64,000 nt of DNA. It comes from Nocardioides nitrophenolicus. Lineage in GTDB: Bacteria; Actinomycetota; Actinomycetes; Propionibacteriales; Nocardioidaceae. This document shows, in pieces, positions 9,375 through 47,501 of the stretch (positions are counted from its first letter, which is position 1; each line of letters begins with the position of its first letter). The DNA is taken from positions 1,364,001-1,428,000 of the forward strand of contig NZ_JAFBBY010000001.1 in the NCBI RefSeq assembly GCF_016907515.1, given 5' to 3'. The notes under the pieces are model-generated. The model was not told the origin of the DNA and did not search any database. It saw nothing but the letters and a program-made list of their open reading frames with translations. The position numbers were made by a program, and so were the translations under genes.

Positions 9375-9400
9375 ATCGGCCCCGAGCGGGGGCGGGTGAG
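9375..9400 (-). promoter_or_regulatory. FliA-type promoter of cheA
   Basis: On the minus strand: CTCA (9400-9397), 16 bases, GCCGAT (9380-9375). The same spacing recurs at nine other motility promoters in this window. The start site would be about 20 bases before the cheA ATG. Confidence 0.75.
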
Positions 9401-9415
9401 GCGAGTCAAGAGAGT

Positions 9416-9430
9416 CGGGACCAGGTCCCG
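9416..9430. promoter_or_regulatory. Palindrome upstream of the cheA promoter
   Basis: CGGGACCAGGTCCCG: two 7-base arms around a single central A. It ends 15 bases upstream of the -35 element of the cheA promoter, a position suited to an activator site. Confidence 0.5.
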
Positions 9431-9488
9431 GTCACTCGCGGCGGGTCGGATCGGCTGGATAGGACGGGCGGGCGGGTGGCCGGATCGC

Positions 9489-9499
9489 GCTGTAACACG
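9489..9499 (-). repeat. CGTGTTACAGC element, inverted copy
   Basis: Reads GCTGTAACACG on the plus strand. The same 11-mer occurs directly at 9592-9602 and 9632-9642, so three exact copies fall within 154 bases of one non-coding region. Confidence 0.5.
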
Positions 9500-9591
9500 G
9501 AGTCCGCTGCCCTACCGGACCCGAGACGTCGCGAAGGCAGGGCCGTGCGGGTCCGGTACAGCCGGCACGGGTCGGGAACAACGGCAGACGA

Positions 9592-9688: not shown

Positions 9689-9934
9689 TCAGGGGCGCGA
9701 GCGGAGCGCCTCGCTGAGCGACGCGACGGCCGTGTCGGGCGGGGAGGCCGCGTCGGCGTTGGCGTCGGCGAGCTCGGCGAGCAGCTCGGCGCGGTGGACG
9801 GCGACCGAGCGGGGCGCGTCGATGCCGATGCGTACGACGTCGCCGCGGACCTCCAGGACGGTGATCGTCACCGCCTCCGGCGAGCCGCCGCCGATGACGA
9901 CGCTTTCACCGATGCGACGCGAGAGAACCAGCAC
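9689..9934 (-). CDS. csrA: Carbon storage regulator CsrA (translational repressor)
   Basis: 81 residues. The first 50 form the CsrA fold: MLVLSRRIGESVVIGGG, then ITVLEVRGDVVRIGIDAP and VHRAELLAEL, which carry the RNA-binding strands. The last 25 residues are a variable tail. CsrA binds GGA motifs in mRNA leaders; in Gram-positive bacteria its main target is flagellin mRNA, and FliW antagonises it. It is the last gene of the flgN-flgK-flgL-fliW-csrA operon, the usual place. The fliC leader carries GGA motifs that could be its binding sites. Confidence 0.93.
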   Translation of the reverse strand: MLVLSRRIGESVVIGGGSPEAVTITVLEVRGDVVRIGIDAPRSVAVHRAELLAELADANADAASPPDTAVASLSEALRSRP

Positions 9935-9952
9935 GTGGTCGAGGTTAGCGGT

Positions 9953-10354
9953 TCAGGCGACCAGCGGCGCGGCGAGCGGCAGGTCCGCGTCGTCGAGGAT
10001 CACCTGGCTGGCCCGCCGGGTGACCGGGTTGACCACCAGCGGCGCGCGCAGGTTGACGGTGGTGTCGGCGAGCGTGGCGCCGGCCCGGACGACGAGCAGC
10101 ACCAGCACCTCGTCCGCCGAGGACTCGTCGATGCCGAGCTCGGTGGCGGTCTCGTCGTCGAGGTCGAGGGCGTAGTCCGGGTAGAACGGCGCGGGTGGGA
10201 CGACCACGAACTGCAGGTCCTGGCTGTCGAGCGAGCGGAACCCGTGGAGTACGCCGTCGTCGTCGAGGCGCACCAGCGCGAACCGGGCGTCGTCGGGGAA
10301 CCCGGGCATCGGGTGCGCGAGCTCGATGACGGGGAGGTCCATGCGCTCGATCAT
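9953..10354 (-). CDS. fliW: Flagellar assembly factor FliW (CsrA antagonist)
   Basis: 133 residues. Family hallmarks include HPMPGFPDDARFALVRLDD at the start and FVVVPPAPFYPDYALDLDDETATELGI in the middle. FliW binds either newly made flagellin or CsrA; when flagellin is exported, freed FliW relieves CsrA repression. The ATG at 10354 overlaps the flgL stop (ATGA); an internal ATG four codons later is an alternative start. Its position between flgL and csrA is the conserved arrangement. Confidence 0.9.
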   Translation of the reverse strand: MIERMDLPVIELAHPMPGFPDDARFALVRLDDDGVLHGFRSLDSQDLQFVVVPPAPFYPDYALDLDDETATELGIDESSADEVLVLLVVRAGATLADTTVNLRAPLVVNPVTRRASQVILDDADLPLAAPLVA

Positions 10355-11241
10355 CGCAGGAAGTCCAGCAGGCTGGGCTGCATGACGCGCGAGGTCGCGG
10401 CGAGGGCGGCCTGGTAGGCCACCTCCTGCAGCTTGAGGTGCACCGTGGTCTCGGCGAGGTCGGCGTTCTCGATGGAGCTGAGGTTGTTGGTCAGCGACAT
10501 CTTCGCGTCGTCGGCCGCCTGCGCGGACTGCTCGATGCGCTGGTAGCGGGTGCCGGCCGCGGCCCGGACGCCGGTGACGGTGTCCTCCCGGGCGCGCAGG
10601 ACGTCGACCGAGGCGGTGATCCCCGCGGTGTCACCGGCGCGCAGCGCGGTGGCGAGCGCGTCGAGCTCGGCGAACACCGAGCTCGCGCCGTCGCCGAAGA
10701 CGGTGCGGCCGTCGACGTCGACCCGGACCACCACGTCGTCGGCGACCCTCCGGTTGACCGCGCCATCGACGCCGACCCAGGTGCCGGTGTCGTCGTAGGC
10801 CCTGCCGGCGGCGGTGACGCCGCCGAAGACCGGCCGCTCGAGATAGCTGGCGTTGGACTGGCCGAGCAGCTGCTCGCGGATCCCGTCGACCTCGATGGCC
10901 AGGGCGTCACGCGCCTGCTGGCCCATGGCGCCGGTGTTGGCTCCCTGGAGCGCGAGGTCCCGCGCCCGGCGTACCGCGGTCGTCACCCCGTCGAGGGTGC
11001 TGTCGACCTGGGTGAGCCAGCCGATGCCGTCCTGGGCGTTGCGGGCGTACTGACCCTGGTCGGAGACCGAGGTGCGGATCCGCATCGCTGCGGTGGTGCC
11101 GGTCGGGTTGTCGGAGGGCCGGTTGATGACCCGCCCGGTCGACAGCCGCTCCTGCAGCGCGGCCAGCTGGCCGAGGTTGCGCTGCAGGTTGGCCAGCGAG
11201 CCGTCGGTGAGCATCCGCTGGGTGACGCGTCCGATGGTCAT
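10351..11241 (-). CDS. flgL: Hook-filament junction protein FlgL (HAP3)
   Basis: 296 residues. The N-terminal flagellin-like helix reads LQRNLGQLAALQERLSTGRVINRPSDNPTGT and the C-terminal helix ends ALAATSRVMQPSLLDFLR, both typical of FlgL. It forms the ring between FlgK and the filament and leaves the cell by the flagellar export route, so no signal peptide is expected. It starts 16 bases after the flgK stop, in the same operon. Confidence 0.93.
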   Translation of the reverse strand: MTIGRVTQRMLTDGSLANLQRNLGQLAALQERLSTGRVINRPSDNPTGTTAAMRIRTSVSDQGQYARNAQDGIGWLTQVDSTLDGVTTAVRRARDLALQGANTGAMGQQARDALAIEVDGIREQLLGQSNASYLERPVFGGVTAAGRAYDDTGTWVGVDGAVNRRVADDVVVRVDVDGRTVFGDGASSVFAELDALATALRAGDTAGITASVDVLRAREDTVTGVRAAAGTRYQRIEQSAQAADDAKMSLTNNLSSIENADLAETTVHLKLQEVAYQAALAATSRVMQPSLLDFLR

Positions 11242-11257
11242 GAGTCCCCCGTGTTCG

Positions 11258-12661
11258 CTAGCGGCCGACCAGGCCGGTGCGGTTGATGAGCGTGTCGAGG
11301 ACCTCGTCGAGGGTGGTCAGCAGCCGGGCGGCGGCCTCGTAGGCGCGCTGCGCGGTCACCATGTTCACCGTCTCCTCGTCGAGGTTGACGCCCGCCTGCT
11401 GCTCGCGGGCGTCGTCGAGGGCGCCGGCCAGCGCGACCTGGTTGGCCGTACGCCGGTCGAGCGCGGCCACGTCCGTCCCGAGCCCGTTGACCAGCCGCTG
11501 GTAGGCGTCCGGGTAGGTGCCGACCCGGCTGAGCAGGTCGGCGTTGCCGCCGTCGAGCGCGCCGCCGCCCACGCTGGAGGCGGCGAGCCGTGCCGGGTCG
11601 GTGATCACGACCTGCAGGCTGGCCGCGCCGACCAGCGGGTCGTAGCCGAACAGCGGCCCGCCCGCGGCCCCGGTGGCGTCGTAGCCCGCGGCCTGCTGGG
11701 CGTTGACGCTCGCGGCGAGGTCGGCGGCGACCGCGTCGAGGCCCGCACGGTACGACGGCAGCGTGGTGGTGAGGATCTCGGTCACCGCGCCCAGCTCGCC
11801 GCTCGGGCCGGCGGATCCGGACGGGAGCACGGTGCTCCCCCAGGAGGCGTCGATCCGGTAGCTGATCGGCGAGCCGTCGGCGCCGCCGGTCGGCGTGATG
11901 CCGGAGGCGAGCACGAAGGCGCCTGCCTCCTTGCCCTGCACCAGCGCGGTCCCGGCGACGCTGACGGTGAACTGCCCGTCGGACTCGACGGTGGTGACGG
12001 CGCCGGTGAGCTCGGCGAGGCGCAGCGCGAGCTGGTCGCGACGGTCGCGCAGCACGCCCGCGTCGGTGCCGTTCTGCTCCGTGACCAGGATGTCGTGGTT
12101 GAGCGCGGCCAGCCCGGAGGCGGCCGTGTTGACCTCGCTGACCAGGTTCGTCGCGTTGACCCGCTGGTCGGCCTCCTCGCCGGTGATGTTGGCGACCTGG
12201 CTGCGCAGCGCCTGCGCGAGGGTCTCGGCGCGACCGAGGACCTGCTGGCGCGCGGCGGTGCCGCCCGGGTTGAGGGAGAGGTCCTGCCAGGCGTTGCGCA
12301 GGTCGAGCATCGCGGCGTGCACGCCGTTGGGGCCGGGCTCGCCGACACCCTCCTCGACCCGGGCCAGGATGGTGCGGCTGGTGGACAGATAGGAGAGCAG
12401 GCCGTGCTCGCGGCGGACCCGCGCGTCGAGGAGCGGGTCGGTCATCCGGCGCACCTCCCCGACCGCGACGCCTTCGCCGTGCCCGTCGTACCGGGACCAG
12501 AGCGCCGCCTGGGCGCTGCTGACCGAGGCCCCGACGACGCGGCGCCGGACGTAGCCGTCGGTGCTCGCGTTGGCGATGTTGTTGCCGGCCACGTCGAGGG
12601 CGACCTGGTTGTAGCGCAGTCCCGAGAGGGCGGTGTTGATCGACCCGAACGACCCTGCCAT
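11258..12661 (-). CDS. flgK: Hook-filament junction protein FlgK (HAP1)
   Basis: 467 residues. N-terminus SINTALSGLRYNQVALDVAG followed by NNIANASTDGYVRRRV is the rod/hook signature. The C-terminus (VNLDEETVNMVTAQRAYEAA, ending RLLTTLDEVLDTLINRTG) is typical of FlgK. I chose ATG 12661 rather than the longer open frame because the signature begins there and the ATG overlaps the flgN stop by one base. Secreted through the flagellar export apparatus. Confidence 0.94.
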   Translation of the reverse strand: MAGSFGSINTALSGLRYNQVALDVAGNNIANASTDGYVRRRVVGASVSSAQAALWSRYDGHGEGVAVGEVRRMTDPLLDARVRREHGLLSYLSTSRTILARVEEGVGEPGPNGVHAAMLDLRNAWQDLSLNPGGTAARQQVLGRAETLAQALRSQVANITGEEADQRVNATNLVSEVNTAASGLAALNHDILVTEQNGTDAGVLRDRRDQLALRLAELTGAVTTVESDGQFTVSVAGTALVQGKEAGAFVLASGITPTGGADGSPISYRIDASWGSTVLPSGSAGPSGELGAVTEILTTTLPSYRAGLDAVAADLAASVNAQQAAGYDATGAAGGPLFGYDPLVGAASLQVVITDPARLAASSVGGGALDGGNADLLSRVGTYPDAYQRLVNGLGTDVAALDRRTANQVALAGALDDAREQQAGVNLDEETVNMVTAQRAYEAAARLLTTLDEVLDTLINRTGLVGR

Positions 12662-13158
12662 CACAGGCTCCGGTCGAGCAGGTGGTGGCGCGGCGCGTCC
12701 GCGACCACGGTGCCGGCGTGGGTGTAGCTGGCGGTGGTCGTGCCGCCGATGGCGAGCAGGGTCTCGCGTGCCGAGCGGTAGCCGGCCGTGAGCAGGCCCT
12801 TGGCGTCCTCGGACGTCTCCGCGATGTCGCGGGCGATCGCGACCAGCGCGTCGCGGTGGTCGCGCAGGATCCCCGCCCACGGGTCGGGGGCCGCCTCGGC
12901 CAGCGCGGCGAGCGAGGGATTGGGCGTCAGCCCGAGCACGGCGGCCGCCTCGTCGGCGGCTGTCGCGCGGAGCAGCTCGGTCGCACGCAGGTCCTCGAGC
13001 AGGTCCTCGATGTCCCGGGTGGCGTTCACCAGCCACCGGGTGCGGCCGCTGGCGAGCACCAGCCGCTCGACCTCCAGCCGGTAGGCCAGCGCCTCGAGCA
13101 TCTCCCGCTCGCGCCACAGGACCTGTGACAGCTTGTCCATGTCTGCTGCGTCGACCAC
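12661..13158 (-). CDS. flgN: FlgN-like export chaperone for FlgK/FlgL
   Basis: 165 residues, mostly helical, without a membrane segment. MDKLSQVLWREREMLEALAYRLEVERLVLA and the RTRWLVNATRDIEDLL segment match actinobacterial FlgN. GTG 13158 is chosen because GGAGAGGTCGGAG lies immediately upstream; the ATG at 13140 is an alternative. It opens the flgN-flgK-flgL-fliW-csrA operon, directly upstream of its expected clients. A FliA-type promoter lies at 13210-13235, giving a leader of about 40 bases. No flgM is found beside it, although flgM often accompanies flgN. Confidence 0.82.
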   Translation of the reverse strand: MVDAADMDKLSQVLWREREMLEALAYRLEVERLVLASGRTRWLVNATRDIEDLLEDLRATELLRATAADEAAAVLGLTPNPSLAALAEAAPDPWAGILRDHRDALVAIARDIAETSEDAKGLLTAGYRSARETLLAIGGTTTASYTHAGTVVADAPRHHLLDRSL

Positions 13159-13287: not shown

Positions 13288-13301
13288 GGGACCTGGGTCC
13301 C
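13288..13301. promoter_or_regulatory. GGGACC-TG-GGTCCC inverted repeat between flgN and the fliA sigma gene
   Basis: Six-base arms around a two-base spacer, in the divergent region between flgN (start 13158) and the sigma gene (start 13371). The architecture matches that at 47485-47498. Confidence 0.45.
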
Positions 13302-13370: not shown

Positions 13371-14213
13371 ATGCATGTGAACGCGAACGACACCACCTCG
13401 GGTACGGACGAGCTGATCACCAGCCACATGCCGCTGGTGGGCCACATCGTGCGGGAGACCATGGGACGGGTCCCGTCCCACGTCAACCGCGACGACCTCA
13501 CCTCGGCGGGACTGACCGCCCTGGTGCTGGCGGCGCGCGCGTTCGACGCGACCCGAGGCGTCCCCTTCGACAGGTACGCCGCCACCCGGATCCGCGGCGC
13601 GCTGCTCGACGAGCTCCGCTCGGTCGACTGGGCCTCGCGCTCGGTACGCCGACGGGCCCGCGACCTCGCCGAGACCCGCAACCAGCTGGCGGTGGTTCTC
13701 GGCCGCACCCCGACGCTGGGCGAGGTGGCGCGCGCGACCGGGCTCAGCGAGGACGAGGTGGTCGCCAACGACGACGACGTCTCCCGCGCGCAGGTGCTGT
13801 CGCTGCAGGGCTCGAGCACGACGCCGATCGAGGAGCTGGTCCCGACCCGCGCCCCCTCTCCGGAGGACCTGCTGGAGCACGGCGAGCGGCTCACCTACCT
13901 GCGTGAGGCGATCGCCGAGCTGCCCGACCGGCTGCGGACCGTGGTCGAGGACTACTTCTTCTGCGAGCGGCCGATGGCCGACATCGCCGCGGACCTCGGC
14001 GTCACCGACTCCCGGATCTCGCAGATGCGGGCCGAGGCGCTCTCGCTGCTGCGCGACGCGCTCAACCACGAGCTGGAGCCGGCCCTGGTCCGCGCGACCG
14101 GCAAGGCGGGCGGCGTGGCCCAGCGCCGCCGCGAGTCGTACTTCGCCGCCGTCGCCGCCCGGCACGCGGCGGGGATGCGCCGCGGCGTCAGCCCGCTCGA
14201 CGCGGTCGGCTGA
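13371..14213 (+). CDS. fliA: Flagellar sigma factor, FliA/WhiG family
   Basis: 280 residues. Region 2 (DELITSHMPLVGHIVRETMG, then DDLTSAGLTALVLAARAFD and YAATRIRGALLDELRSVDWASRSVRR) is diagnostic for FliA/WhiG. Region 3 (GRTPTLGEVARATGLSEDEV) and region 4 (FFCERPMADIAADLGVTDSRISQM) follow. About 40 residues trail region 4, more than in enteric FliA. ATG 13371 is chosen because it opens the conserved part. No FliA-type promoter is seen in front of it, so it may be transcribed by another sigma. It is the likely reader of the CTCA-N16-GCCGAT promoters. Confidence 0.92.
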   Translation: MHVNANDTTSGTDELITSHMPLVGHIVRETMGRVPSHVNRDDLTSAGLTALVLAARAFDATRGVPFDRYAATRIRGALLDELRSVDWASRSVRRRARDLAETRNQLAVVLGRTPTLGEVARATGLSEDEVVANDDDVSRAQVLSLQGSSTTPIEELVPTRAPSPEDLLEHGERLTYLREAIAELPDRLRTVVEDYFFCERPMADIAADLGVTDSRISQMRAEALSLLRDALNHELEPALVRATGKAGGVAQRRRESYFAAVAARHAAGMRRGVSPLDAVG

Positions 14214-14891: not shown

Positions 14892-16013
14892 ATGGGTCTT
14901 CGCATCAACCAGAACATCGAGGCCACCAACGCCTACCGCAACCTGTCGGTGACGCAGGGTCAGCTCTCGAAGTCGATGGAGAAGCTGTCGTCCGGCTTCC
15001 GGATCAACCGGGCCGCCGACGACGCCGCCGGTCTCGCGATCTCCGAGGGCCTGCGCTCGCAGGTCGGTGGCCTCAAGGTCGCCGTCCGCAACGCCCAGGA
15101 CGGCATCTCCGTCGTCCAGACCACGGAGGGCGCGCTCACCGAGGTCCACTCGATCCTGCAGCGCATGCGCGACCTCGCGGTGCAGGCGTCGAACGACAGC
15201 AACAACACCGAGGCCCGGGCCAACATCAAGGCGGAGGCGGACCAGCTCACCTCCGAGCTGACCCGGATCGGCAACTCGACCAACTTCAACGGCACCAAGC
15301 TGCTCGACGGCAGCGCGGGCACGCTGAACTTCCAGGTCGGCGCCGACGGCGACTCGGACAGCAACATCGCCGTCAACCTGGCCACCGCCAACGTGGTCTC
15401 GATCGCGAGCAACCTCGGCAGCGCCGGCGCCAAGTTCGACGTGCTGACGCCGACCGCCGTCACCGGTGCGGTCACCTTCTCCACCACCACCCCCGCCACC
15501 ACCGCGACCGTCACCCTCGGCGCGGCCGGCACCTACAACACGGTGAACGACGTCGCCGACGCCCTCAACGGCGACACCGGCTTCGCGGCCAATTTCAGCG
15601 CGTCGGTCAACGACACCAACCAGCTGGTCGTGTCCTCGAAGGTCGGCGGCGCGGTCGCCGTCACCGCGCCCGGCACCGGCATCGCCGCCGGCGCGACCGT
15701 CTCGGGCGGCCTGAGCTTCGCCACCCACGCCGACGCCCAGGCCGCGATCAACACGATCGACACCCAGATCAGCGCGGTCTCCACCGCCCGAGCCAACCTC
15801 GGTGCGTACCAGAACCGGTTCGAGCACACGATCGCCAACGTCAACGTGGCGATCGAGAACCTGTCGGCCTCGGAGTCGCGGATCCGCGACACCGACATGG
15901 CCTCGGAGATGATGAGCTTCACCAAGTCCCAGATCCTCTCGCAGGCCGGCACGGCGATGCTCGCGCAGGCCAACTCGGCCCCGAACGGCGTCCTGCAGCT
16001 GCTCCGCGGCTGA
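14892..16013 (+). CDS. fliC: Flagellin FliC
   Basis: 373 residues. N-terminal D0/D1 (MGLRINQNIEATNAYRNLSV to about 140) and C-terminal D1/D0 (about 285-373, ending ANSAPNGVLQLLRG) are strongly conserved and build the filament core. The middle (about 175-280) is a Thr/Ala/Val-rich variable domain exposed on the surface. It starts with ATG after a strong ribosome site (CCAGGAGGGAACC). No signal peptide, as expected for export through the flagellum. A stem-loop terminator follows, before fliD. Only one flagellin gene is present in the window. Confidence 0.97.
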   Translation: MGLRINQNIEATNAYRNLSVTQGQLSKSMEKLSSGFRINRAADDAAGLAISEGLRSQVGGLKVAVRNAQDGISVVQTTEGALTEVHSILQRMRDLAVQASNDSNNTEARANIKAEADQLTSELTRIGNSTNFNGTKLLDGSAGTLNFQVGADGDSDSNIAVNLATANVVSIASNLGSAGAKFDVLTPTAVTGAVTFSTTTPATTATVTLGAAGTYNTVNDVADALNGDTGFAANFSASVNDTNQLVVSSKVGGAVAVTAPGTGIAAGATVSGGLSFATHADAQAAINTIDTQISAVSTARANLGAYQNRFEHTIANVNVAIENLSASESRIRDTDMASEMMSFTKSQILSQAGTAMLAQANSAPNGVLQLLRG

Positions 16014-16029
16014 TCGAGCACGTCTCCCT

Positions 16030-16062
16030 GCTGCCGGTGGGGCCCTCGGCCCCACCGGCAGC
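16030..16062 (+). terminator. Terminator downstream of fliC
   Basis: A perfect 15-bp stem with loop CTC (arms 16030-16044 and 16048-16062), 17 bases after the fliC stop. fliD begins 30 bases further on, so leakage through this hairpin could set a high flagellin to FliD ratio. Confidence 0.8.
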
Positions 16063-16092
16063 TGCCGTTCCTGACACCCTCCGGAGGAATCG

Positions 16093-17436
16093 ATGGCAAC
16101 CGCGAGCATCGGCGGACTGGCCAGCGGCCTCGACACCGCCACCATCATCAGCCAGCTGATGTCCCTGGAGGCGGTGCCGCAGGGCAAGCTGAAGACCCAG
16201 CTCGCCACCGAGCAGACCCGGCTGTCGAGCTACCAGCAGCTCAACGCCCGGCTCGCCACGCTCGGCGGCACCGCGGGCTCCCTCGCCTCCACCTCCACCA
16301 CGACCGGCACCTGGTCGGCGCTCAAGGCGACCTCGAGCAACACCGCGGTCAGCGTCACCGCGACCAACAGCGCCCAGCCGAGCGCGTTCACCGTGACCGT
16401 CGGGCAGACCGCGCTCAGCCATCAGCTCGCCTTCACCGACGCACACGCCAAGGGCGACGTGGTCACCGGCTCCGGCACCGACGTCGTGCTCAAGCGCTCC
16501 GGCCAGGCCGACCTCACGATCAGCACCGCCGGCGGCACGCTCGAGCAGGTGGCAACCGCCATCAACGCGGCCGACAAGGGCGTCCGCGCCACGCTGGTCA
16601 AGGTCGGCAGCACCGGTGGCACCGACCAGTTCCGGCTGCTCGTCGAGTCCACCGCCACCGGTGACGCGTCGGCCTTCGAGCTCACGGCGGCGGACGGCTC
16701 GGCCCTCCTGGGCGGTACGACGGTCCGCGCCGGCCGCGACGCCAGCATCACCATCGGCGGGATCACCGCCACCTCGGCGACCAACACCTTCACCGACGTC
16801 ACCCCCGGTGTGACCATCACCCTCGGCTCCAACGCCACCGGCTCCAGCGACATCGCCGTCACCCGTGACGCCGCGACCCGCTCGGCCGCGGTGACGTCGA
16901 TGGTCAACGACATCAACGGCATGCTCGAGGCGATCGCCACCGCCACCGCCCACAACGCCGACGCGACCAAGGCGGGCGTGCTGTCCGGCGACAGCACCCT
17001 GCGCGCGGTCTCCAGCAGCCTGGCGACGGCGATCTACCCCGAGGACGGGACCTCGCTGGCGACGTACGGCATCCAGCTGGACCGCTACGGCAAGCTCACC
17101 TTCGACGAGGCCAAGTTCGCGGCCGCCTACGCCGCCGACCCGGACGCCGTCACCGCGGCGATCACCGGCAAAGACGGCTTCGCGGGACGGGTGCAGGCGG
17201 TCGCGGTCAGTGCCAGCGACAAGATCACCGGCACCGTCACCAACGCCGTCAACGGCCGCACCGCCGCGATCAGCCGGCTCAACAAGAGCATCGAGGCCTG
17301 GGACGACCGGCTCGCGCTCCGACGTACCTCCCTGGAGCGGCAGTTCACCGCCCTGGAGACCGCCATGTCCCAGATGCAGAGCCAGTCCAACTGGCTCGCC
17401 AGCCAGCTCAGCGCCCTGACCAAGTCCAGCGAGTGA
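16093..17436 (+). CDS. fliD: Filament cap protein FliD (HAP2)
   Basis: 447 residues. The start IGGLASGLDTATIISQLMSLE is the FliD_N signature. The C-terminal third (about 260-445) is FliD_C, ending in a coiled coil (LRRTSLERQFTALETAMSQMQSQSNWLASQL). It caps the growing filament and folds flagellin at the tip. A good ribosome site (CCGGAGGAATCG) precedes the ATG. fliS and a fliT-like gene follow with almost no gap. No separate FliA-type promoter is seen, so it probably depends on readthrough from fliC. Confidence 0.95.
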   Translation: MATASIGGLASGLDTATIISQLMSLEAVPQGKLKTQLATEQTRLSSYQQLNARLATLGGTAGSLASTSTTTGTWSALKATSSNTAVSVTATNSAQPSAFTVTVGQTALSHQLAFTDAHAKGDVVTGSGTDVVLKRSGQADLTISTAGGTLEQVATAINAADKGVRATLVKVGSTGGTDQFRLLVESTATGDASAFELTAADGSALLGGTTVRAGRDASITIGGITATSATNTFTDVTPGVTITLGSNATGSSDIAVTRDAATRSAAVTSMVNDINGMLEAIATATAHNADATKAGVLSGDSTLRAVSSSLATAIYPEDGTSLATYGIQLDRYGKLTFDEAKFAAAYAADPDAVTAAITGKDGFAGRVQAVAVSASDKITGTVTNAVNGRTAAISRLNKSIEAWDDRLALRRTSLERQFTALETAMSQMQSQSNWLASQLSALTKSSE

Positions 17437-17447
17437 GGACCGACCCC

Positions 17448-20856: not shown

Positions 20857-20858
20857 CC

Positions 20859-35635: not shown

Positions 35636-35908
35636 GTGATCTCGCTGACCCGACTCTCGGGGACCACGTTCCTGCTGAACGCGGACCTGATCGAGCGCGT
35701 CGACTGCACCCCGGACACCGTGGTGACGCTGGTCGACGGCACCAAGTACATCGTGGCCGAGTCGCTCGACGAGGTGCGCGACGCCGTCATCGCCTACCGC
35801 TCGGCCATCGTGGCGCGGGCGGCCCTGCCGGACGCGTCGACGGTCGCCCCGGTCCGGGCCCGCCAGGGCCGGCTGACCGCCGTACCCCCGCGAGGAGTGA
35901 CCCCGTGA
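35636..35908 (+). CDS. flbD: FlbD/SwrD-like small flagellar protein
   Basis: 90 residues: ISLTRLSGTTFLLNADLIERVDCTPDTVVTLVDGTKYIVAESLDEV is the FlbD core. GTG 35636 is chosen because GGAGGT stands 6 bases upstream. The last 30 residues are a Pro-rich tail. FlbD proteins sit before motA and are needed for motor function or swarming in Bacillus. Its stop overlaps the motA GTG by 3 bases. Confidence 0.9.
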   Translation: MISLTRLSGTTFLLNADLIERVDCTPDTVVTLVDGTKYIVAESLDEVRDAVIAYRSAIVARAALPDASTVAPVRARQGRLTAVPPRGVTP

Positions 35909-39185: not shown

Positions 39186-39190
39186 TCCCC

Positions 39191-39991: not shown

Positions 39992-39996
39992 CGCCG

Positions 39997-40413
39997 ATGT
40001 CCGACAGCATCGGTCTCGGGGAGCTGGCCGTCCGCCTGGTCGGCTCCCTGGCACTCGTCGTCGGGCTGCTGCTGGTCATCGCCCGCCTCGCCAACCGCCG
40101 GTTCAAGGCACCGGCCGGTGCGGCGATCCAGGTCGTCCAGCGCCAAGCGCTCGGTCGGGGCCAGGGCGTGGCCGTGGTCTCCGTCGGCACCCGGATCCTG
40201 GTCCTCGGCACCACCGAGCAGCAGATCACGCTGCTCGCCGAGGTCGAGCCGGACGAGATCGGGCTGGACCCGACCGCCGGCGACCCGGACGAGGCGGCCC
40301 CCGTCGTACCGGACGGAGCGAGCCCCACCCCCGGTGCGCTCAGCGGATCCGTGCTCTCCCCGCAGACCTGGAAGGACGCCATGGCCGCCGTCACCGGGAA
40401 GCGGGCGTCGTGA
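39997..40413 (+). CDS. fliO: Flagellar biosynthesis protein FliO
   Basis: 138 residues. One membrane segment near residues 10-30 (LAVRLVGSLALVVGLLLVIARLANRRF), then VVQRQALGRGQGVAVVSVGTRILVLGTTEQQITLLAEV, the FliO domain. FliO helps assemble the FliP core of the export gate. Low conservation is normal; its place between fliN and fliP is decisive. It overlaps fliP by 4 bases. Confidence 0.9.
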   Translation: MSDSIGLGELAVRLVGSLALVVGLLLVIARLANRRFKAPAGAAIQVVQRQALGRGQGVAVVSVGTRILVLGTTEQQITLLAEVEPDEIGLDPTAGDPDEAAPVVPDGASPTPGALSGSVLSPQTWKDAMAAVTGKRAS

Positions 40414-41180
40414 TCACGACCCTGTCGAGCGGCGTGACCCGGCTCGCCCTGGTCCTCGCCGACCCGGCGGGACCGACCGGACCGAACGGCCCGGGCGGCG
40501 GCACCGGCGGCGGCAGCGTCCGGATCGACCTGTCGGGCATGACCGACAAGCCGAGCAACAGCCTGCTCGTCTTCCTCGCGCTGACCCTGCTCAGCCTGCT
40601 GCCGGCGATCGTGCTGACCTGCACCAGCTTCACGAAGGTGCTCGTCGTGCTCGGCCTGACCCGCAACGCGCTCGGACTCCAGCAGACCCCGAACAACCAG
40701 GTGCTCGCGGGACTCGCGCTCTTCCTGAGCCTGTTCATCATGGCGCCGGTGCTCTCGCAGGTGAACGACGACGGCGTCCAGCCCTACCTCGACGGCGACA
40801 AGACCACCTCGGCCGCGTTCCACGACGGCATGGAGCCGCTGCGCGCGTTCATGCTCGACAACACCGACGACGGGGAGCTCCAGCTGCTCACCAGCGTCGC
40901 CGACCGCAAGCTCCCCGAGAACCGCGACGACGTCTCGACCGCGACCCTGATCCCGGCGTTCGTGCTCTCCGAGCTCAAGGACGCCTTCGTGATCGGGTTC
41001 ATCATCTTCATCCCGTTCCTGGTCATCGACATCGTCGTGAGCGGCGCGCTGATGAGCCTCGGCATGATGATGATGCCGCCGGTGATGGTGTCCCTGCCGT
41101 TCAAGCTGCTGCTGTTCGTGATGGTCGACGGGTGGGCCCTGGTGATCAAGGCGCTGGTCGCGTCGTACGGGACGGGTTAG
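40410..41180 (+). CDS. fliP: Export gate protein FliP
   Basis: 256 residues. The long Gly-Pro-rich N-terminus precedes the conserved core LVFLALTLLSLLPAIVLTCTSFTKVLVVLGLTRNALGLQQTPNNQVLAGLALFLS. The C-terminal pair of membrane segments has SGALMSLGMMMMPPVMVSLPFKLLLFVMVDGW, highly conserved in FliP. Five copies form the gate pore with FliQ and FliR. GTG start overlaps the fliO stop. Confidence 0.96.
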   Translation: MITTLSSGVTRLALVLADPAGPTGPNGPGGGTGGGSVRIDLSGMTDKPSNSLLVFLALTLLSLLPAIVLTCTSFTKVLVVLGLTRNALGLQQTPNNQVLAGLALFLSLFIMAPVLSQVNDDGVQPYLDGDKTTSAAFHDGMEPLRAFMLDNTDDGELQLLTSVADRKLPENRDDVSTATLIPAFVLSELKDAFVIGFIIFIPFLVIDIVVSGALMSLGMMMMPPVMVSLPFKLLLFVMVDGWALVIKALVASYGTG

Positions 41181-41184
41181 CGCC

Positions 41185-41454
41185 GTGACCGACACCGCGA
41201 TCATCGAGATCGCCCTCAAGACGATGCTGGTGGCGCTCAAGCTGTCGGCGCCGATCCTCGCCACGTCGCTGGTGATCGGCTTCGCCATCTCGCTGTTCCA
41301 GGCGATGACGCAGGTCCAGGAGTTCACGCTCTCCTTCGTGCCCAAGCTGGTGGGCGTCGGACTGGCGCTGCTGTTCTGCGGCAACTGGATGCTGCACACC
41401 CTGATGGCGTTCACCCGCGAGCTGTTCGACCTGCTCCCCGGCCTGCTCACCTAG
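41185..41454 (+). CDS. fliQ: Export gate protein FliQ
   Basis: 89 residues with two membrane segments (about 14-36 and 50-72): MLVALKLSAPILATSLVIGFAISLFQAMTQVQEFTLSFVPKL is the FliQ signature. GTG start, 4 bases after fliP. The stop is followed 8 bases later by fliR. Confidence 0.96.
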   Translation: MTDTAIIEIALKTMLVALKLSAPILATSLVIGFAISLFQAMTQVQEFTLSFVPKLVGVGLALLFCGNWMLHTLMAFTRELFDLLPGLLT

Positions 41455-41462
41455 GCCCGGCC

Positions 41463-42230
41463 GTGGTCCTCTCCGTCGACGGTGCCGCCCTCAGCGCACT
41501 GCTGCTCGCCTCGGTGCGGGTGGTGGCGTGGCTGGTCGTCGTACCCCCGTTCGCGACCCGGGGCATCCCCACCATGGCCAAGGTGGTCCTGGCGTTGGGG
41601 CTCTCGCTCGCGATGGCGCCGACCCTGGCCACCCAGGACCTGCCGGGTACGACGCCCGCCCTCGTGCTGGCCACCGCGGCGCAGGCGCTGATCGGCGTGG
41701 GCATGGGCTACGTGACGATGCTGCTGTTCTCGGCGGTCGGTGCCGCCGGCTCGCTGGTGGACGTGTTCGGGGGCTTCGCGCTGGCCGCCGCCTGGGACCC
41801 GCTGGCGATGAACTCCAACACCGTCTTCGGCCGCTTCCACCAGCTGCTCGCGACCGCCCTCCTCGTGGTGTCGGGTGGGCACCTGATCGTGATCGGCGGC
41901 CTGCTGAGCACCTTCCGCTACCTGCCGCTCACCGGCATGCCCGACGTGTCGAGCTGGGACGGCGTGCTGCTGACGGCGTTCTCCATGTTCTTCACCGTGG
42001 CGGTGCAGATGGCCCTGCCGATGATCGCGGTCCTCTTCGTCGCGGACCTGGCGCTCGCCCTGCTGACCAAGGTCGCGCCCCAGCTGAACGCGCTCAGCAT
42101 GATGTTCCCCGCCAAGGTCGGACTGACCCTGCTGCTGCTCGGACTGTCCTTCCCGATGCTGCCCGGCGCCTTGGACCGACTGGTCACCTATGCGAACCAG
42201 GCGATGGCGACCATGGCCGGGGCGGGGTGA
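41463..42230 (+). CDS. fliR: Export gate protein FliR
   Basis: 255 residues, multi-membrane-spanning. RVVAWLVVVPPFATRGIPTMAKVVLALGLSLAM at the N-terminus and VFGGFALAAAWDP in the middle match FliR; the C-terminus has PMIAVLFVADLALALLTKVAPQLNALSMMFPAKVGL, the family's most conserved block. It completes the FliPQR gate. GTG start; flhB begins 6 bases after the stop. Confidence 0.96.
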   Translation: MVLSVDGAALSALLLASVRVVAWLVVVPPFATRGIPTMAKVVLALGLSLAMAPTLATQDLPGTTPALVLATAAQALIGVGMGYVTMLLFSAVGAAGSLVDVFGGFALAAAWDPLAMNSNTVFGRFHQLLATALLVVSGGHLIVIGGLLSTFRYLPLTGMPDVSSWDGVLLTAFSMFFTVAVQMALPMIAVLFVADLALALLTKVAPQLNALSMMFPAKVGLTLLLLGLSFPMLPGALDRLVTYANQAMATMAGAG

Positions 42231-42236
42231 CGCGCG

Positions 42237-43373
42237 ATGGCGGCGAGCGAGGAGAAGACCGAGAAGCCCACACCGAAGCGGAAGAAGCAGGCCCGCAAGG
42301 ACGGCCAGGTCCCGCGTACCCCCGAGCTCGGTGGCTGGCTCGGACTCCTGGTCGCGGCGCTGGCCATGGGCCCGCTGCTCGACCATGAGCTGGACACGCT
42401 GCGCACGCTGATGGCGACCTCGCTGCGCTCCGCCGCCGATCCCTCGGTCTCCCTCGCCCTGACGCTGCTCGGCGATGCCGGGCGCCACGTCTTCCTCACC
42501 CTGCTCGTGCTGGGCTCGATGATGCTCGTCGTCGGCGTGCTCTCCGCGCTCGCCCAAGGCGGCTTCTACCTCTCCCCCAAGCTCGCCAAGCCCGATCCCA
42601 AGAAGCTCGACCCGTTCAAGGGAGCCAAGCGCCTGCTCGGACCCCACGCCGTGTGGGAGGGCGTGAAGGTGCTCGGCAAGAGCAGCGTCGTCGCCTTCCT
42701 CGCCTGGGGAGCCGTGACGTCGATGATGCCGCTCGTCGGCGGCCTGCTCCCGATCGGCGTCGTGCTGCACCAGGTCACCGCCGAGGTCTCCCGCCTGCTG
42801 CTCACCGTCGCCGTCGCCGGCCTGGTGATGGCGGCCGCCGACTACGCGATGATGCGACGCCGGATCGGCAAGCAGCTGCGGATGAGCCACAGCGAGATCA
42901 AGCAGGAGCACAAGCAGTCCGAGGGCGACCCCCTGGTCAAGGGCGCCATCCGGGCGCGCCAGCTCGCCGCCGCCCGGAACCGGATGATCGCCGACGTCGC
43001 CACCGCCGACGTGCTGCTCGTCAACCCCACCCACGTGGCCGTCGCCCTCCGCTACGACCCCGAGCAGGGCGCGCCGCGCGTCGTCGCCCGCGGCGCCGGC
43101 GCCATCGCCGCCCGGATCCGGTCGGTGGCCGCCGAGGAGCGCGTCCCGCTCGTCCAGGACGTCCCGCTGGCACGGGCGCTGTACCGGCACTGCCAGGTCG
43201 GCCAGGAGATCCCCCGGGAGCTGTGGGCCGCGGTGGCGCAGGTGCTGGCGTTCGTGCTCAGCCGCCGCCACGCCGGTCAGTACGGCGGCGAGCACCGCAC
43301 CCCTCGGCGTACCGACGACCTGCCGGAGGTGCTCGCCCACGCCCGGCGGCGGCGGGTGGTGGAGGATGCATGA
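42237..43373 (+). CDS. flhB: Export substrate-switch protein FlhB
   Basis: 378 residues. EEKTEKPTPKRKKQARKDGQVPRTPEL at the N-terminus, four membrane segments, and the self-cleaving motif N263-P264-T265-H266 (LVNPTHVAVALRYDPEQGAPRVVARG). The cytoplasmic C-terminal domain changes specificity from rod/hook to filament substrates after the FliK signal. The end is followed by a 107-base gap with the flhA promoter. Confidence 0.97.
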   Translation: MAASEEKTEKPTPKRKKQARKDGQVPRTPELGGWLGLLVAALAMGPLLDHELDTLRTLMATSLRSAADPSVSLALTLLGDAGRHVFLTLLVLGSMMLVVGVLSALAQGGFYLSPKLAKPDPKKLDPFKGAKRLLGPHAVWEGVKVLGKSSVVAFLAWGAVTSMMPLVGGLLPIGVVLHQVTAEVSRLLLTVAVAGLVMAAADYAMMRRRIGKQLRMSHSEIKQEHKQSEGDPLVKGAIRARQLAAARNRMIADVATADVLLVNPTHVAVALRYDPEQGAPRVVARGAGAIAARIRSVAAEERVPLVQDVPLARALYRHCQVGQEIPRELWAAVAQVLAFVLSRRHAGQYGGEHRTPRRTDDLPEVLAHARRRRVVEDA

Positions 43374-43480: not shown

Positions 43481-45550
43481 ATGTCCGTGAAGTCGCTGAC
43501 CCGGCTCGGAGTGCCCCTGGGCATCGTGCTGATCGTCGTCATGCTCGTGGTGCCGCTGCCGGCGGTCGTCCTGGACCTGATGATCGCGCTCAACATCACC
43601 GGTGCCCTGCTGGTGCTGATGGTCGCGATGTTCATCCACAAGCCCCTGGAGTTCTCCGCGTTCCCGTCCGTCATCCTCGTCATGACGCTGTTCCGGCTGG
43701 CTCTCAACGTGAGCGCCACCCGCCTGGTCCTCCTCGACGGGTACGCCGGCAAGGTGATCGACACCTTCGGCCACTTCGTGGTCGGCGGCTCCCTGATCGT
43801 CGGGCTGATCGTGTTCGCGATCCTGCTCGTCATCCAGTTCGTCGTCATCACCAATGGCGCCGGCCGGGTCGCCGAGGTCGGCGCGCGGTTCACCCTCGAC
43901 GCGATGCCGGGCAAGCAGATGGCGATCGACGCGGACCTGAACTCGGGCCTCATCGACGAGGAGGAGGCCCGGCGACGGCGGGCGGAGGTGCACGCGGAGG
44001 CGGACTTCCACGGCGCGATGGACGGTGCGTCCAAGTTCGTGAAGGGCGACGCGATCGCGGCGATCGTGATCACGTTGGTCAACCTGCTCGGCGGGTTCGC
44101 GATCGGCGTCGCCCAGTACGGCATGCCCTTCGGGGAGGCGATCAACACCTACTCGCTGCTGTCGATCGGCGACGGCCTGGTCTCCCAGGTGCCCGCGCTG
44201 CTGCTCAGCGTCGCGACCGGCCTGATCGTGACCCGCGCGGTGGCCGACTCCGACATGGGCTCCGACATCGTCGGCCAGATCTTCAAGCGCAGGATGCCGC
44301 TGCGCGTCGCCGGCTTCGGCGCGCTCGCCCTCTGCGCGATCCCCGGCCTGCCGAAGCTGCCCTTCCTGGTGGCGGGCGGGCTGATGCTGCTCGGCGCGAG
44401 CCGGATCGACGAGTCCGCCGGCGACGGTACGGCGAGCACCGACGCGGAGACCGCCGCCGGCGAGCTGGCGCAGGTCCCCGACACCCCCGAGGCGCTGATC
44501 AACGAGATCCGGGTCGACCCGCTGGGGCTCGAGCTGTCCGCCGACCTGATCGACCTCGTCGACGCCCGCTCCGGTGGCGACCTGCTGGACCGGGTCAAGG
44601 CGCTGCGCCGCAAGGTGGCCGGCGAGCTCGGCATCGTGATCCCGCCGGTGCGCACCCGCGACAACCTCGAGCTGCCGGCGAGCACCTACGCCATCACGCT
44701 GTACGGCGCCGAGCTGGCCCGCGGCGAGGCGCCGCGCGGGACGGTGCTGGCGATCGGCGAGTTCCTCGACTCACTGCCGGGCACCCCGACCCGGGAGCCG
44801 GTGTTCGGCCTGGACGCGAAGTGGATCCCGGCCGAGCTGCGGCACCAGGCCGAGATCGGCGGCGCGACGGTCGTCGACCGCGCGTCCGTGGTCACCACCC
44901 ACCTGGCCGAGGTCGTGCACCAGCACGCCAGCCGGCTGCTCGGCCGCGAGGACGTCCGGCTGCTCACCGACGTGGTCAAGCGCAGCCACCCCGTCGTCAT
45001 CGAGGAGCTCACCCCCACCCAGCTTCCGCTCGGCGAGGTGCAGCGGGTGCTCCGGGCACTGCTGGACGAGCGGATCCCCATCCGCGACCTGGTACGGATC
45101 TTCGAGGCCCTCTCGGTCCGCGCCGCCGTCAGCAAGGACCTCGACGGCCTGGTCGAGGCCGCCCGCTCCGCGCTCGAGCCCGCGCTCGCCGCGCCGTACG
45201 TCACCGACGGGGTGCTGCACGCGATCAGCTTCGAACCGCTGCTCGAGCAGCACCTGCTGGAGGCGCTGCGGCCGACCGAGCAGGGCGCCGTGGTGGTGCT
45301 GGACCCCGACCTCGCGCAGCGGCTGCTGGTCAACCTGGCCCAGGCCGTGCAGGCGGCCGAGAACACCGACGTGCGTCCGGTCCTGGTCTGCGCGCCCGCG
45401 CTTCGTGCCGCCGTACGCCGGCTGGTGGCGCCGACCGTCGAGCGCCTCCCCGTCCTCTCGTACGCCGAGCTCGGCGCGGCCCACGAGGTCCGCTCGGTCG
45501 CCGTCGTGTCCGCCACCGGGGCCCGTCCCGCACTCGGAGCAGGAGTCTGA
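43481..45550 (+). CDS. flhA: Export gate protein FlhA
   Basis: 689 residues. N-terminal half has about eight membrane segments with the FHIPEP signature region (GRVAEVGARFTLDAMPGKQMAIDADLNSGLIDEEEARRRR). The C-terminal cytoplasmic half (about 340-689) forms the nonameric ring that receives chaperone-substrate complexes (DVVKRSHPVVIEELTPTQLPLGEVQRVLRALLDERIPIRDL). It has its own promoter. A small membrane protein follows. Confidence 0.97.
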   Translation: MSVKSLTRLGVPLGIVLIVVMLVVPLPAVVLDLMIALNITGALLVLMVAMFIHKPLEFSAFPSVILVMTLFRLALNVSATRLVLLDGYAGKVIDTFGHFVVGGSLIVGLIVFAILLVIQFVVITNGAGRVAEVGARFTLDAMPGKQMAIDADLNSGLIDEEEARRRRAEVHAEADFHGAMDGASKFVKGDAIAAIVITLVNLLGGFAIGVAQYGMPFGEAINTYSLLSIGDGLVSQVPALLLSVATGLIVTRAVADSDMGSDIVGQIFKRRMPLRVAGFGALALCAIPGLPKLPFLVAGGLMLLGASRIDESAGDGTASTDAETAAGELAQVPDTPEALINEIRVDPLGLELSADLIDLVDARSGGDLLDRVKALRRKVAGELGIVIPPVRTRDNLELPASTYAITLYGAELARGEAPRGTVLAIGEFLDSLPGTPTREPVFGLDAKWIPAELRHQAEIGGATVVDRASVVTTHLAEVVHQHASRLLGREDVRLLTDVVKRSHPVVIEELTPTQLPLGEVQRVLRALLDERIPIRDLVRIFEALSVRAAVSKDLDGLVEAARSALEPALAAPYVTDGVLHAISFEPLLEQHLLEALRPTEQGAVVVLDPDLAQRLLVNLAQAVQAAENTDVRPVLVCAPALRAAVRRLVAPTVERLPVLSYAELGAAHEVRSVAVVSATGARPALGAGV

Positions 45551-45555
45551 TCGTC

Positions 45556-45828
45556 ATGATGCTCGACCTGCGCGTGTTCGTGCTCGCCGCCGTCGTCGCC
45601 TCGCCCGCCGCCTACCTGGTGGCACACGGCGAGCTCACCCTCGACGAGGCACTGACCCGGCTGCTGGTGGTGATGGTGGGCGCCACGGCTGCCGCCCTCA
45701 CGATCCGCACCCTGTGGCCGCTGCTCGCCGGCGCGACGCCGGAGCCGCTCGACGCCGAACCGGCCGAGGTCGCCGAACCGGCCGAGGTCGCGGATCCGGC
45801 CGACGAGCTCAGCCCACGGCCGGAATGA
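45556..45828 (+). CDS. Small membrane protein downstream of flhA
   Basis: 90 residues, no family recognised. Two likely membrane segments (LRVFVLAAVVASPAAYLVAHG and RLLVVMVGATAAALTIRTLWPLL) and an acidic Pro-Ala tail with repeated PAEVAEPAEV units. It starts 5 bases after the flhA stop (ATG 45556; a second ATG follows at once) and probably shares its transcript. Its 3' end overlaps the opposing kinase gene by 20 bases. A role in motility is inferred only from position. Confidence 0.6.
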   Translation: MMLDLRVFVLAAVVASPAAYLVAHGELTLDEALTRLLVVMVGATAAALTIRTLWPLLAGATPEPLDAEPAEVAEPAEVADPADELSPRPE

Positions 45829-47389
45829 CCCACTCGAGCACGGTGCCCTGACCGGGCGCCGAGCTCACCAGCAGGTGCCCACCGAGCTCCTCGGCCCGGG
45901 AGCGCAGGTTGCCGGTGCCGTGCCCGGCGGACGCTACCGTCGGGTCGAAGCCCACGCCGTCGTCGACCACCCGGAGCCGGAACCAGGCCGACGAGGCGGT
46001 CAGCTCCACGGTCACGGTGGACGCCGCGGCGTGCCGGGCGACGTTCGACAGCGCCTCGCGCAGCGTGCCCAGGACGTGCGCGCCGGCCTCGGGCACGAGT
46101 GCGCGGTCGACCGGGCCCTGGATGCGCAGCAGCGGCTGGAAGCCCAGCACGGGGGCGTACTCGGTGAGCAGCCCGCGCACGTCCTCGAGCAGCGGCCGGT
46201 CCGAGCCGGTGCCGAGCTCGAAGATCACCGAGCGCAGCTCCTTGATCACGCCGTCGAGCTCGGCCACCGCGCCGTCGACCCGGGTCCGCAGCTCGGCCGG
46301 GTCGAGGTCGCGAGCACCCTGGAGCTGCATCCCGGTCGCGAACAGCCGCTGGATGACCAGGTCGTGGAGGTCGCGGGCGATCCGGTCACGGTCCCGCGCC
46401 ACGAGCAGCTGGGCCCGCTCCCGCAGCGCCTGTCGCCGGTCGAGGATCAGCCCGAGCTGGGCCGCGGTCACCGCGACAAGGTCGAGCATGATCTCGCGCA
46501 ACGACGGCGACTCCTCGGCACGGTCGACGAGGATCACGCCCGGACCGGCGAGCCGGGTGTGGACGGGGACGACGAGCGTCGTGCGGTGGTGCTCCCCCGG
46601 CAGTCGGGCCGGGATCCGGGAGGCGGTCACCTCGCGGATCTGCTCGGCGTACCGCTCCACCACGCGCGGCGCGGCCAAGGTGTCGCCGGTGACCTGGCGG
46701 ACCTCGAGCAGCCCGGTGTCGACCCGGACGTAGGCCACCAGCCGCGCGCCGCACAGCTCGCGCAGCGAGATCACCAGCTCGTCGAGGGCCTCCTCGACGC
46801 TGGCGGTCCCGGTCAGGTCGCGGCCGATCTCACCGGTGGCGGCAAGCCACCGGCGGCGCCACTCGACCTGCTCGTAGGCGCGGGCGTTGTCGATCATCGT
46901 GCCGGCCGCGCGCGCGAGCGCCTCGACCAGCGCCTGGTCGGTCGCGGTGAACTCGACGCCGCCGCGCTTGTTGCCGAGGTAGAGATGGCCGAAGGCACGC
47001 TCGCGGACCAGCACCGGCGCGCCGAGGAAGCGGTCGATCGTCGGGTGGCTGTCGGGGAACGAGCCGGACGAGACCGGGTGCTCGGCGACGTGCGCCACCC
47101 GGATCGAGCGCCGCTCGCGGGGCACCAGCCCCAGCAGGCCGTGCCCCTCCGGCATCCGCCCGATCTTGTCGAAGCGCTCCCCCACGGCCGCATTGGGCAC
47201 CAGGTCGACGAAGTCACCCTGGTCGTCGACGATCCCCAGCACGCCGAACTCGGCATCGGTGAGTTCGCAGGATGCCTCGACGATGCGGGTCAGCACACCG
47301 CGCAGGTCCAGGTCGGAGCCGATCGCGACGACCGCGTCCAACAGGGCGCGGGCCTCGGCCGGCAGCTCGAGCTCCTGGTCCAGGTCCAT
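45809..47389 (-). CDS. GAF-domain sensor histidine kinase, DevS/DosS-like
   Basis: 526 residues, soluble. GAF at about 15-170 and a second GAF at about 185-325; then HisKA_3 with phospho-acceptor H342 (DRDRIARDLHDLVIQRLFATGM) and a GHKL ATPase (EALSNVARHAA, VVDDGVGFDP, HGTGNLRSRAEELGG). The SHPTIDRFLGAPVLV stretch (H115) aligns by eye with the GAF-A segment where DevS/DosS carries its haem-ligand histidine, so oxygen or redox sensing is possible. No response regulator lies beside it; the DevR-like protein at 3548 is the natural partner. Its promoter is of FliA type and contains a palindrome. Confidence 0.88.
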   Translation of the reverse strand: MDLDQELELPAEARALLDAVVAIGSDLDLRGVLTRIVEASCELTDAEFGVLGIVDDQGDFVDLVPNAAVGERFDKIGRMPEGHGLLGLVPRERRSIRVAHVAEHPVSSGSFPDSHPTIDRFLGAPVLVRERAFGHLYLGNKRGGVEFTATDQALVEALARAAGTMIDNARAYEQVEWRRRWLAATGEIGRDLTGTASVEEALDELVISLRELCGARLVAYVRVDTGLLEVRQVTGDTLAAPRVVERYAEQIREVTASRIPARLPGEHHRTTLVVPVHTRLAGPGVILVDRAEESPSLREIMLDLVAVTAAQLGLILDRRQALRERAQLLVARDRDRIARDLHDLVIQRLFATGMQLQGARDLDPAELRTRVDGAVAELDGVIKELRSVIFELGTGSDRPLLEDVRGLLTEYAPVLGFQPLLRIQGPVDRALVPEAGAHVLGTLREALSNVARHAAASTVTVELTASSAWFRLRVVDDGVGFDPTVASAGHGTGNLRSRAEELGGHLLVSSAPGQGTVLEWVIPAVG

Positions 47390-47475
47390 CGGGTGTCGAT
47401 CCCCTCCCGCAGCGAACGTCGACCTGTGAAGGCTATCCCTTTACTTTCTCGCGCCACCAACCGCGCATGCCGTTC

Positions 47476-47501
47476 ATCGGCACCGGGACCCAGGTCCTGA
47501 G
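47476..47501 (-). promoter_or_regulatory. FliA-type promoter of the DevS-like kinase
   Basis: Minus strand: CTCA (47501-47498), 16 bases, GCCGAT (47481-47476). The 16-base spacer contains the palindrome GGGACC-CA-GGTCCT (47485-47498), so a bound protein would cover the promoter. Confidence 0.65.
47485..47498. promoter_or_regulatory. GGGACC-CA-GGTCCT inverted repeat in the kinase promoter
   Basis: Two six-base arms, one mismatch, two-base spacer. It matches the element at 13288-13301 read on the other strand apart from the terminal base. Confidence 0.5.

Follow-up and report, generated by a model that had tools for sequence, protein, structure and literature searches.

Textbook flagella are assembled as their genes come on in a timed cascade, in which an anti-sigma factor is exported; the classical spacing of sigma28 promoters is N15. 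In 2016, Jang et al. reportedly derived the consensus CTCA(N15-17)GCCGAA for the flagellar gene cluster of Actinoplanes missouriensis. According to a review, 33 flagellar genes of this organism are transcribed simultaneously, with no hierarchical coordination (PMC8306008), and another source gives the promoters of sigma28 (FliA/SigD) and WhiG as -35 TAAA and -10 GCCGATAA (PMC8325347). The motility island of Nocardioides nitrophenolicus described here lies in a stretch of 64,000 nucleotides (assembly GCF_016907515.1, contig NZ_JAFBBY010000001.1, positions 1,364,001 to 1,428,000; hereafter the window) of a genome that consists of a single contig of 5.8 Mb. Like the Actinoplanes cluster, and as judged from sequence alone, it has one promoter type at its basal-body, export, motor and filament operons, early and late. 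Such a flat regulon, already described for Actinoplanes, is not new in kind; the new element here would be a link between the sigma factor gene fliA and a two-component pair related to the mycobacterial DevR/DevS.

The promoter form CTCA-N16-GCCGAT, with up to one mismatch, was searched for in 34 upstream regions of the window, with spacers of 10–15 and 17–22 bases as controls; a longer form, CTCAG-N15-GCCGATG, was searched for genome-wide. Sites were found before exactly the ten genes named in the original prediction, all of them in non-coding gaps and oriented toward their gene:

9375-9400, minus strand: FliA-type promoter of cheA, exact
13210-13235, minus strand: FliA-type promoter of flgN, one mismatch; present in 26/30 fliA/flgN regions, window included
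14800-14825, plus strand: FliA-type promoter of fliC, one mismatch
19939-19964, minus strand: FliA-type promoter of cheB, exact
19967-19992, plus strand: FliA-type promoter of cheR, exact
25881-25906, plus strand: FliA-type promoter of flgB, one mismatch
35540-35565, plus strand: FliA-type promoter of flbD, one mismatch
38233-38258, plus strand: FliA-type promoter of fliM, one mismatch
43378-43403, plus strand: FliA-type promoter of flhA, exact
47476-47501, minus strand: FliA-type promoter of the kinase gene, exact

Five sites are thus exact and five carry one mismatch, and those of cheR and fliM end 9 bases before the start codons as called here. The claimed spacer of exactly 16 bases is borne out by the ten matches at this distance, compared with 0 or 1 at each of the 12 other spacers. 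Among 18 of the 34 regions, hand-chosen to span the motility island, ten contain a site, against a mean of 0.1 and a maximum of 2 in 500 dinucleotide shuffles. The sites share the -10 core of sigma28/WhiG promoters and, as CTCA-N16 equals TCAG-N15, the classical geometry, and differ from them in having TCAG in place of TAAA. The -10 is mostly GCCGAT, unlike the GCCGAA of the consensus reported for Actinoplanes.

An origin of the sites as chance matches to a short, degenerate motif in a GC-rich genome was considered. The window contains 20 one-mismatch sites, ten of which fall outside the scanned upstream regions, and any lone site is therefore weak evidence. Genome-wide, the longer form at one mismatch and its control occur about equally often (105 vs. 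104), and the search proposed earlier as a means of listing the regulon shows no excess; exact copies of CTCA-N16-GCCGAT number 35, against 18 for the control read backward. Spacer specificity, placement upstream of genes, the shuffle results and conservation in relatives all argue against a chance origin of the ten sites. We consider such an origin next to impossible, and the presence of the promoter set is near certain.

Conservation was followed in a first sample of 40 flhA-bearing genomes of the class, drawn from 50 found besides that of the window, and in a second set of loci that includes 49 Nocardioidaceae-like (L200–L247 and L267, of which L215, L227 and L243 carry higher-rank names only) and 29 Micromonosporaceae-like loci. 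In the first sample, a site at spacer 16 with up to one mismatch precedes flbD in 21/31 cases, fliM in 22/32, flhA in 25/40 and flgB in 10/22, and other spacers give 0–5 for these genes. The 16 remaining genes give 0–2 at spacer 16, save fliR with 3 and flhB with 4 of 32, and a control as high as 10/32 was also seen (fliR, spacer 13). The best matches in some distant genomes of this sample resemble CTAAC-N15-GCCGAC/T. In the second set, the same search is positive for cheA in 23/24 cases, flgN in 40/52, fliC in 43/49, cheB in 21/27, cheR in 18/21 and flgB in 31/32, with 0–7 at other spacers, and operon-internal genes are nearly devoid of sites at spacer 16 (fliD 0/45, flgK 2/46, fliW 0/44, csrA 2/43). 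Among 167 Nocardioidaceae-like sites, preselected at one mismatch or less, 66% have G directly behind CTCA, and the GCCGAT element ends in T in 74% and in A in 22%.

The gene expected to encode the cognate sigma factor is located within the island:

13371..14213, plus strand: fliA, FliA/WhiG-type sigma factor (Pfam sigma-70 regions 2, 3 and 4)

The family assignment made earlier for this gene agrees with its sigma regions 2–4, with WhiG and FliA as the best PDB matches, and with TIGR02479 (FliA_WhiG) as the best NCBIfam model, at 175.8 bits under a cut-off of 189.6. The product is the top FliA/WhiG match in a genome-wide search (176.4 bits). The second match, at 137 bits, is of the SigB/F/G type, scoring 305 bits with that model and passing the model's own cut-off, and of the two only the 13371 product has FliA/WhiG as its best family. 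By these scores it is a divergent relative, presumably working like FliA, and not a certified TIGR02479 member. Over the best segment, it shares 96% identity with the FliA of Nocardioides sp. SLBN-35 and 95% with that of N. daeguensis. Because of its family and of its co-occurrence with flhA (39 of the 40 relatives tested that bear flhA also have fliA, vs. 1 of 20 that lack it), this sigma factor very probably reads the ten promoters. Three genomes of the same genus (G063, G202 and G380) carry two or three fliA-like genes each.

In the proposed mechanism, the 13371 sigma factor would recognize a single kind of promoter, CTCAG-N15-GCCGATG, and through it transcribe every flagellar, motor, export and chemotaxis operon of the island, and the operons below fliA would form a single tier. 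Operons are here genes joined by small gaps, all transcription units being predicted in this way, and most names, from the mcp-cheW-cheA operon through flhA, come from Pfam (fliF, fliG, fliI, fliP, fliQ and fliR were named by position and order):

4417..9346, minus strand: cheA-cheW-mcp operon (Pfam; operon by gaps)
9689..13140, minus strand: flgN-flgK-flgL-fliW-csrA operon (Pfam; operon by gaps)
14892..18166, plus strand: fliC-fliD-fliS-orf (Pfam for fliC, fliD and fliS, none for the last orf; operon by gaps)
18871..19914, minus strand: cheB (Pfam)
20002..22558, plus strand: cheR-cheY-cheX-cheY-orf operon (Pfam, last orf without family; operon by gaps)
26007..35476, plus strand: flgB-flgC-fliE-fliF-fliG-fliH-fliI-fliJ-slt-fliK-flgD-flgE operon (Pfam)
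35636..38143, plus strand: flbD-motA-motB-fliL (Pfam)
38268..43373, plus strand: fliM-fliN-fliO-fliP-fliQ-fliR-flhB (Pfam; fliP, fliQ and fliR by position and order)
43481..45550, plus strand: flhA (Pfam FHIPEP, E 2e-250)

In the flgB operon, fliH (29705-30355) has no Pfam match and was named by position and order, and fliJ scores slightly under the cut-off. If gaps are taken to delimit the operons, some 44 genes would be served by the ten sites. A gap of at least 26 bases but no site precedes the motility genes fliA, fliD (79 bases past fliC) and flgE (33 bases), and perhaps a coiled-coil gene at 18316. The flat hierarchy that had been predicted is supported by the sequence in that early (flgB, fliM and flhA) and late (fliC) operons share the promoter, and has to be amended in that fliA itself is outside the regulon in Nocardioidaceae. 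Since no flagellum or chemotaxis operon lacks this promoter, the complete apparatus is probably turned on simultaneously. No FlgM was found in this genome; with no cascade in the promoters below fliA and no recognizable FlgM, the order of assembly would have to be set by the machine itself or post-transcriptionally. Post-transcriptional control may stand in for a cascade, because csrA and fliW (9689-10354) sit inside the flgN-flgK-flgL operon.

The region upstream of fliA is of a different kind. In 30 such regions from several families, a sense promoter at spacer 16 is present before fliA in none and before the divergent flgN in 26. Among the Nocardioidaceae-like loci of the second set, no exact sense site and three with one mismatch were found in 49, and these counts do not support the idea that the sigma factor drives its own gene in this family. 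Micromonosporaceae-like loci differ, with an exact sense site in 11/29 and the palindrome described below in 0/29. This indicates that fliA is controlled differently there, and its autoregulation in Micromonosporaceae is possible. In a k-mer search upstream of fliA, nothing but fragments of the flgN promoter exceeded the shuffles. Inspection of the 30 sequences by eye first revealed a palindrome, GGGAC-N4-GTCCC:

13288..13301, no strand: DevR-box-like palindrome GGGACCTGGGTCCC, beginning 83 bases ahead of the fliA ATG

The palindrome GGGACCTGGGTCCC is centered about 76 bases before the fliA start codon, between the divergent flgN and fliA, and is the sole exact copy of this form in the window. 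At spacer 4, six of the 30 regions have an exact copy and 12 have one with up to one mismatch, compared with 0–5 at other spacers, a count that is no independent test since the palindrome was spotted in these same regions. In the 49 Nocardioidaceae-like fliA upstreams there are 13 exact copies and 27 with up to one mismatch; 300 dinucleotide shuffles gave means of 0.13 and 1.9, with maxima of 2 and 7, and a reversed-letter control palindrome was found in none of the 49. Its start lies between -78 and -91 in 20 of the 27 loci. The half-sites are better conserved than the center in 23 non-redundant sites, which had been chosen on half-sites. Palindromes are seldom found before cheB (2/25) and cheR (1/20), and not before fliC (0/45). 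The lack of a sense promoter at fliA together with the frequent DevR-like box suggests that there is probably one regulatory tier above the flat regulon in Nocardioidaceae. A simpler arrangement would leave the flat FliA regulon on its own, with an ordinary housekeeping promoter driving fliA and a palindrome that either has nothing to do with motility or acts on flgN. The promoter evidence holds without the palindrome, which is found in just 27/49 loci and sits between two divergent genes; its conserved position relative to fliA, its count far above shuffles and the presence of DevR-like and DevS-like genes on the flanks of the island make this arrangement rather unlikely. In Nocardioides alkalitolerans, where no flhA match was found in the genome, a decayed locus (L336/L238) keeps a regulator, a short flgL fragment, flgN, the palindrome and fliA. 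This is consistent with a link between palindrome and fliA, but the locus may merely be decaying.

The DevR-like gene is found at one end of the island, convergent with the mcp-cheW-cheA operon, and the DevS-like kinase gene at the other:

3548..4291, plus strand: DevR/DosR-like NarL-family response regulator, proposed fliA activator (Pfam Response_reg and GerE)

The best PDB match of the product is M. tuberculosis DevR (3c3w, E 5e-61, residues 7-214), and the best NCBIfam model, under its cut-off, is MadR. In the alignment, the segment AEKTVKN of the DNA-binding domain, recognition helix included, is identical to that of DevR; it contains K179, K182 and N183, which we take to be the DNA-contact residues of DevR. 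The mycobacterial DosR motif is given as TTSGGGACTWWAGTCCCSAA (PMC2275270), and GGGAC-N4-GTCCC resembles this box. Before DevR-like genes themselves, the palindrome (up to one mismatch) occurs in 8 of 13 unlinked and 0 of 10 flagellum-linked cases. This suggests autoregulation of the unlinked genes and ties the box to the DevR family. In the first sample, linkage of a regulator to the flagellar cluster and the palindrome went together (9/10 linked against 3/17, p 0.0008). The second set, with 36 of 49 loci usable, gave 12/17 vs. 8/19 (p 0.11), short of the usual significance, and linkage as a predictor of the palindrome was dropped. In the tree of regulators, 3 changes suffice for the linked label vs. 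15 in shuffles, a clustering that near-copies help, and 17 linked rows group together with a support of 93/86, not starred.

The genome contains a second DevR-like regulator (677906), which falls among the unlinked rows of the tree and lies less than 1 kb from a GAF-HisKA_3 kinase. The palindrome could be the box of this regulator or of another NarL-type protein, with motility joining a general DevR regulon. The proximity of the second pair would fit, as would the 25 exact boxes in the genome (vs. 3 for the backward control): eight of the 15 examined (14 of the 24 loci outside the window and that of fliA) are intergenic, among them fliA's and another in front of a gene for a diguanylate cyclase. 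Flagellum-linked regulators of Nocardioidaceae, however, mostly cluster apart (the 17 rows above), and both in the window and in G303 and G166 they are located at the edge of the flagellar cluster, so that we hold a general DevR regulon to be somewhat unlikely. The box at L281, 75 bases ahead of the gene for a universal stress protein, was not used, as it falls within the ATPase gene that comes before.

The input to the DevR-like regulator would be the kinase encoded next to flhA:

45809..47389, minus strand: DevS/DosS-like histidine kinase (Pfam GAF, HisKA_3 and HATPase)
47485..47498, no strand: second DevR-box-like palindrome, with one mismatch; it covers the final -35 base and 13/16 spacer bases of the kinase promoter

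In the PDB, the kinase matches the DevS GAF domain (E ~1e-28). The two GAF domains of DevS/DosS kinases were looked for as well, and Pfam detects one GAF region. Residues H115, Y137 and H342 are conserved in 23/23 sequences, window included; the first two correspond in the alignment to what we take as H149 and Y171 of DevS, presumably the heme-ligating histidine and the distal tyrosine. As the kinase gene is itself a predicted sigma target, a loop would be closed, and its expression could be damped by the phosphorylated regulator, through the box in the spacer of its promoter. In the nearest relative (G045), the sigma site and the box are both kept before the kinase gene, with intact half-sites and a changed center.

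The best explanation overall, which we regard as reasonably probable, is a single tier read by FliA, a DevR/DevS switch on fliA and a kinase loop, that is, DevS/DosS-like kinase to DevR-like regulator to fliA to ten operons, the kinase gene included. Within it, DevR-like control of fliA is favored to a similar degree: the regulator would bind the palindrome upstream of fliA, binding would mean activation, and the signal would be oxygen, NO or redox. The promoters and their conservation, the sigma family, the lack of a promoter at fliA, the palindrome and the DevR/DevS relationship can be read in the DNA itself. A stronger version, that a paralogous heme-sensing DevS/DevR pair was recruited in Nocardioidaceae as the motility master switch via fliA, with the sigma factor in turn making the sensor kinase, is tentative and falls a little short of even probability. 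Several points weigh against the best explanation. The sigma factor scores under the TIGR02479 cut-off. The palindrome was chosen by eye, and the second, larger set overlaps the 30 regions; with up to one mismatch, it is missing in 22/49 Nocardioidaceae-like and 29/29 Micromonosporaceae-like loci, and it is also found before flgB (5/29, 3 exact) and cheA (6/23, 1 exact). The association with linkage fell short of significance in the second set, the linked regulators do not form one clade (six, from other genera and families, lie on the unlinked side), and the second DevR-like regulator could potentially bind the same box. The kinase gene adjoins flhA in just 4 of the 18 genomes with a kinase match, and two of these four (G342 and G166) have neither promoter nor box within 300 bases of the match; the feedback loop may therefore be limited to close relatives.

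Among described systems close to the proposed FliA–DevR/DevS circuit is DosR-DosS/DosT (DevR-DevS) of M. tuberculosis, with which the circuit shares the regulator and kinase families, the heme-site histidine and tyrosine and a palindromic box. It differs in that the two genes are split to the ends of the motility island and in the proposed target, fliA instead of dormancy genes. In the Firmicute Listeria, DegU is a NarL-type regulator that is not DevR-like and is not known to act with a heme kinase. A limited search of open-licence papers yielded no report that links DevR to flagella. The regulator proposed here would resemble DegU as a response regulator of flagellar expression (PMC9263151). 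If the DevR link is true, swimming is under the control of a sister of the dormancy switch of mycobacteria, which would connect motility with the sensing of oxygen; if the master-switch reading is true, swimming would be gated by oxygen, NO or redox through one gene.

The main switch could also be the activity of FliA and not transcription of its gene, through an anti-sigma factor of the FlgM or RsiG type. Sigma factors of this family are known to be held in check in this way, by FlgM (PMC4255298) and, in the case of WhiG, by RsiG (PMC8325347), and two diguanylate cyclase genes outside the window (L296 and L314) are preceded, at 39 and 63 bases, by an exact sigma-type site. No FlgM was found in the genome, and a codon-restricted, not exhaustive search for the RsiG-repeat pattern gave 4 matches, two of which are copies of one repeat, vs. 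13 for the control, which makes a switch at the level of FliA activity quite improbable. One 48-base match to this pattern (L340/L341) is present twice, 191 bases apart, and is a repeat in the host genome.

Of the 30 exact sigma-type sites examined outside the window, nine are intergenic and one lies over a probably miscalled start (L013). The ten downstream genes, to be taken as a list of candidates, encode by Pfam the two diguanylate cyclases, a BclA-like protein, a divergent TPR protein, a DUF1800 protein, an acyltransferase and an ABC transporter (L013); two others have weak, below-cut-off matches, and one is without family.

Within the island, the gene at 32099-33025 in the flgB operon encodes one protein that fuses NlpC/P60 and lytic transglycosylase domains. 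The genes at 22572-25854, between the chemotaxis and flgB operons, encode a YhcG-type nuclease, an Ig-like domain protein and an MPAB/Lcp oxygenase domain, with no evident link to motility. Divergent from the kinase gene, the gene at 47591-49600 encodes a protein with FlgD Ig-like repeats.

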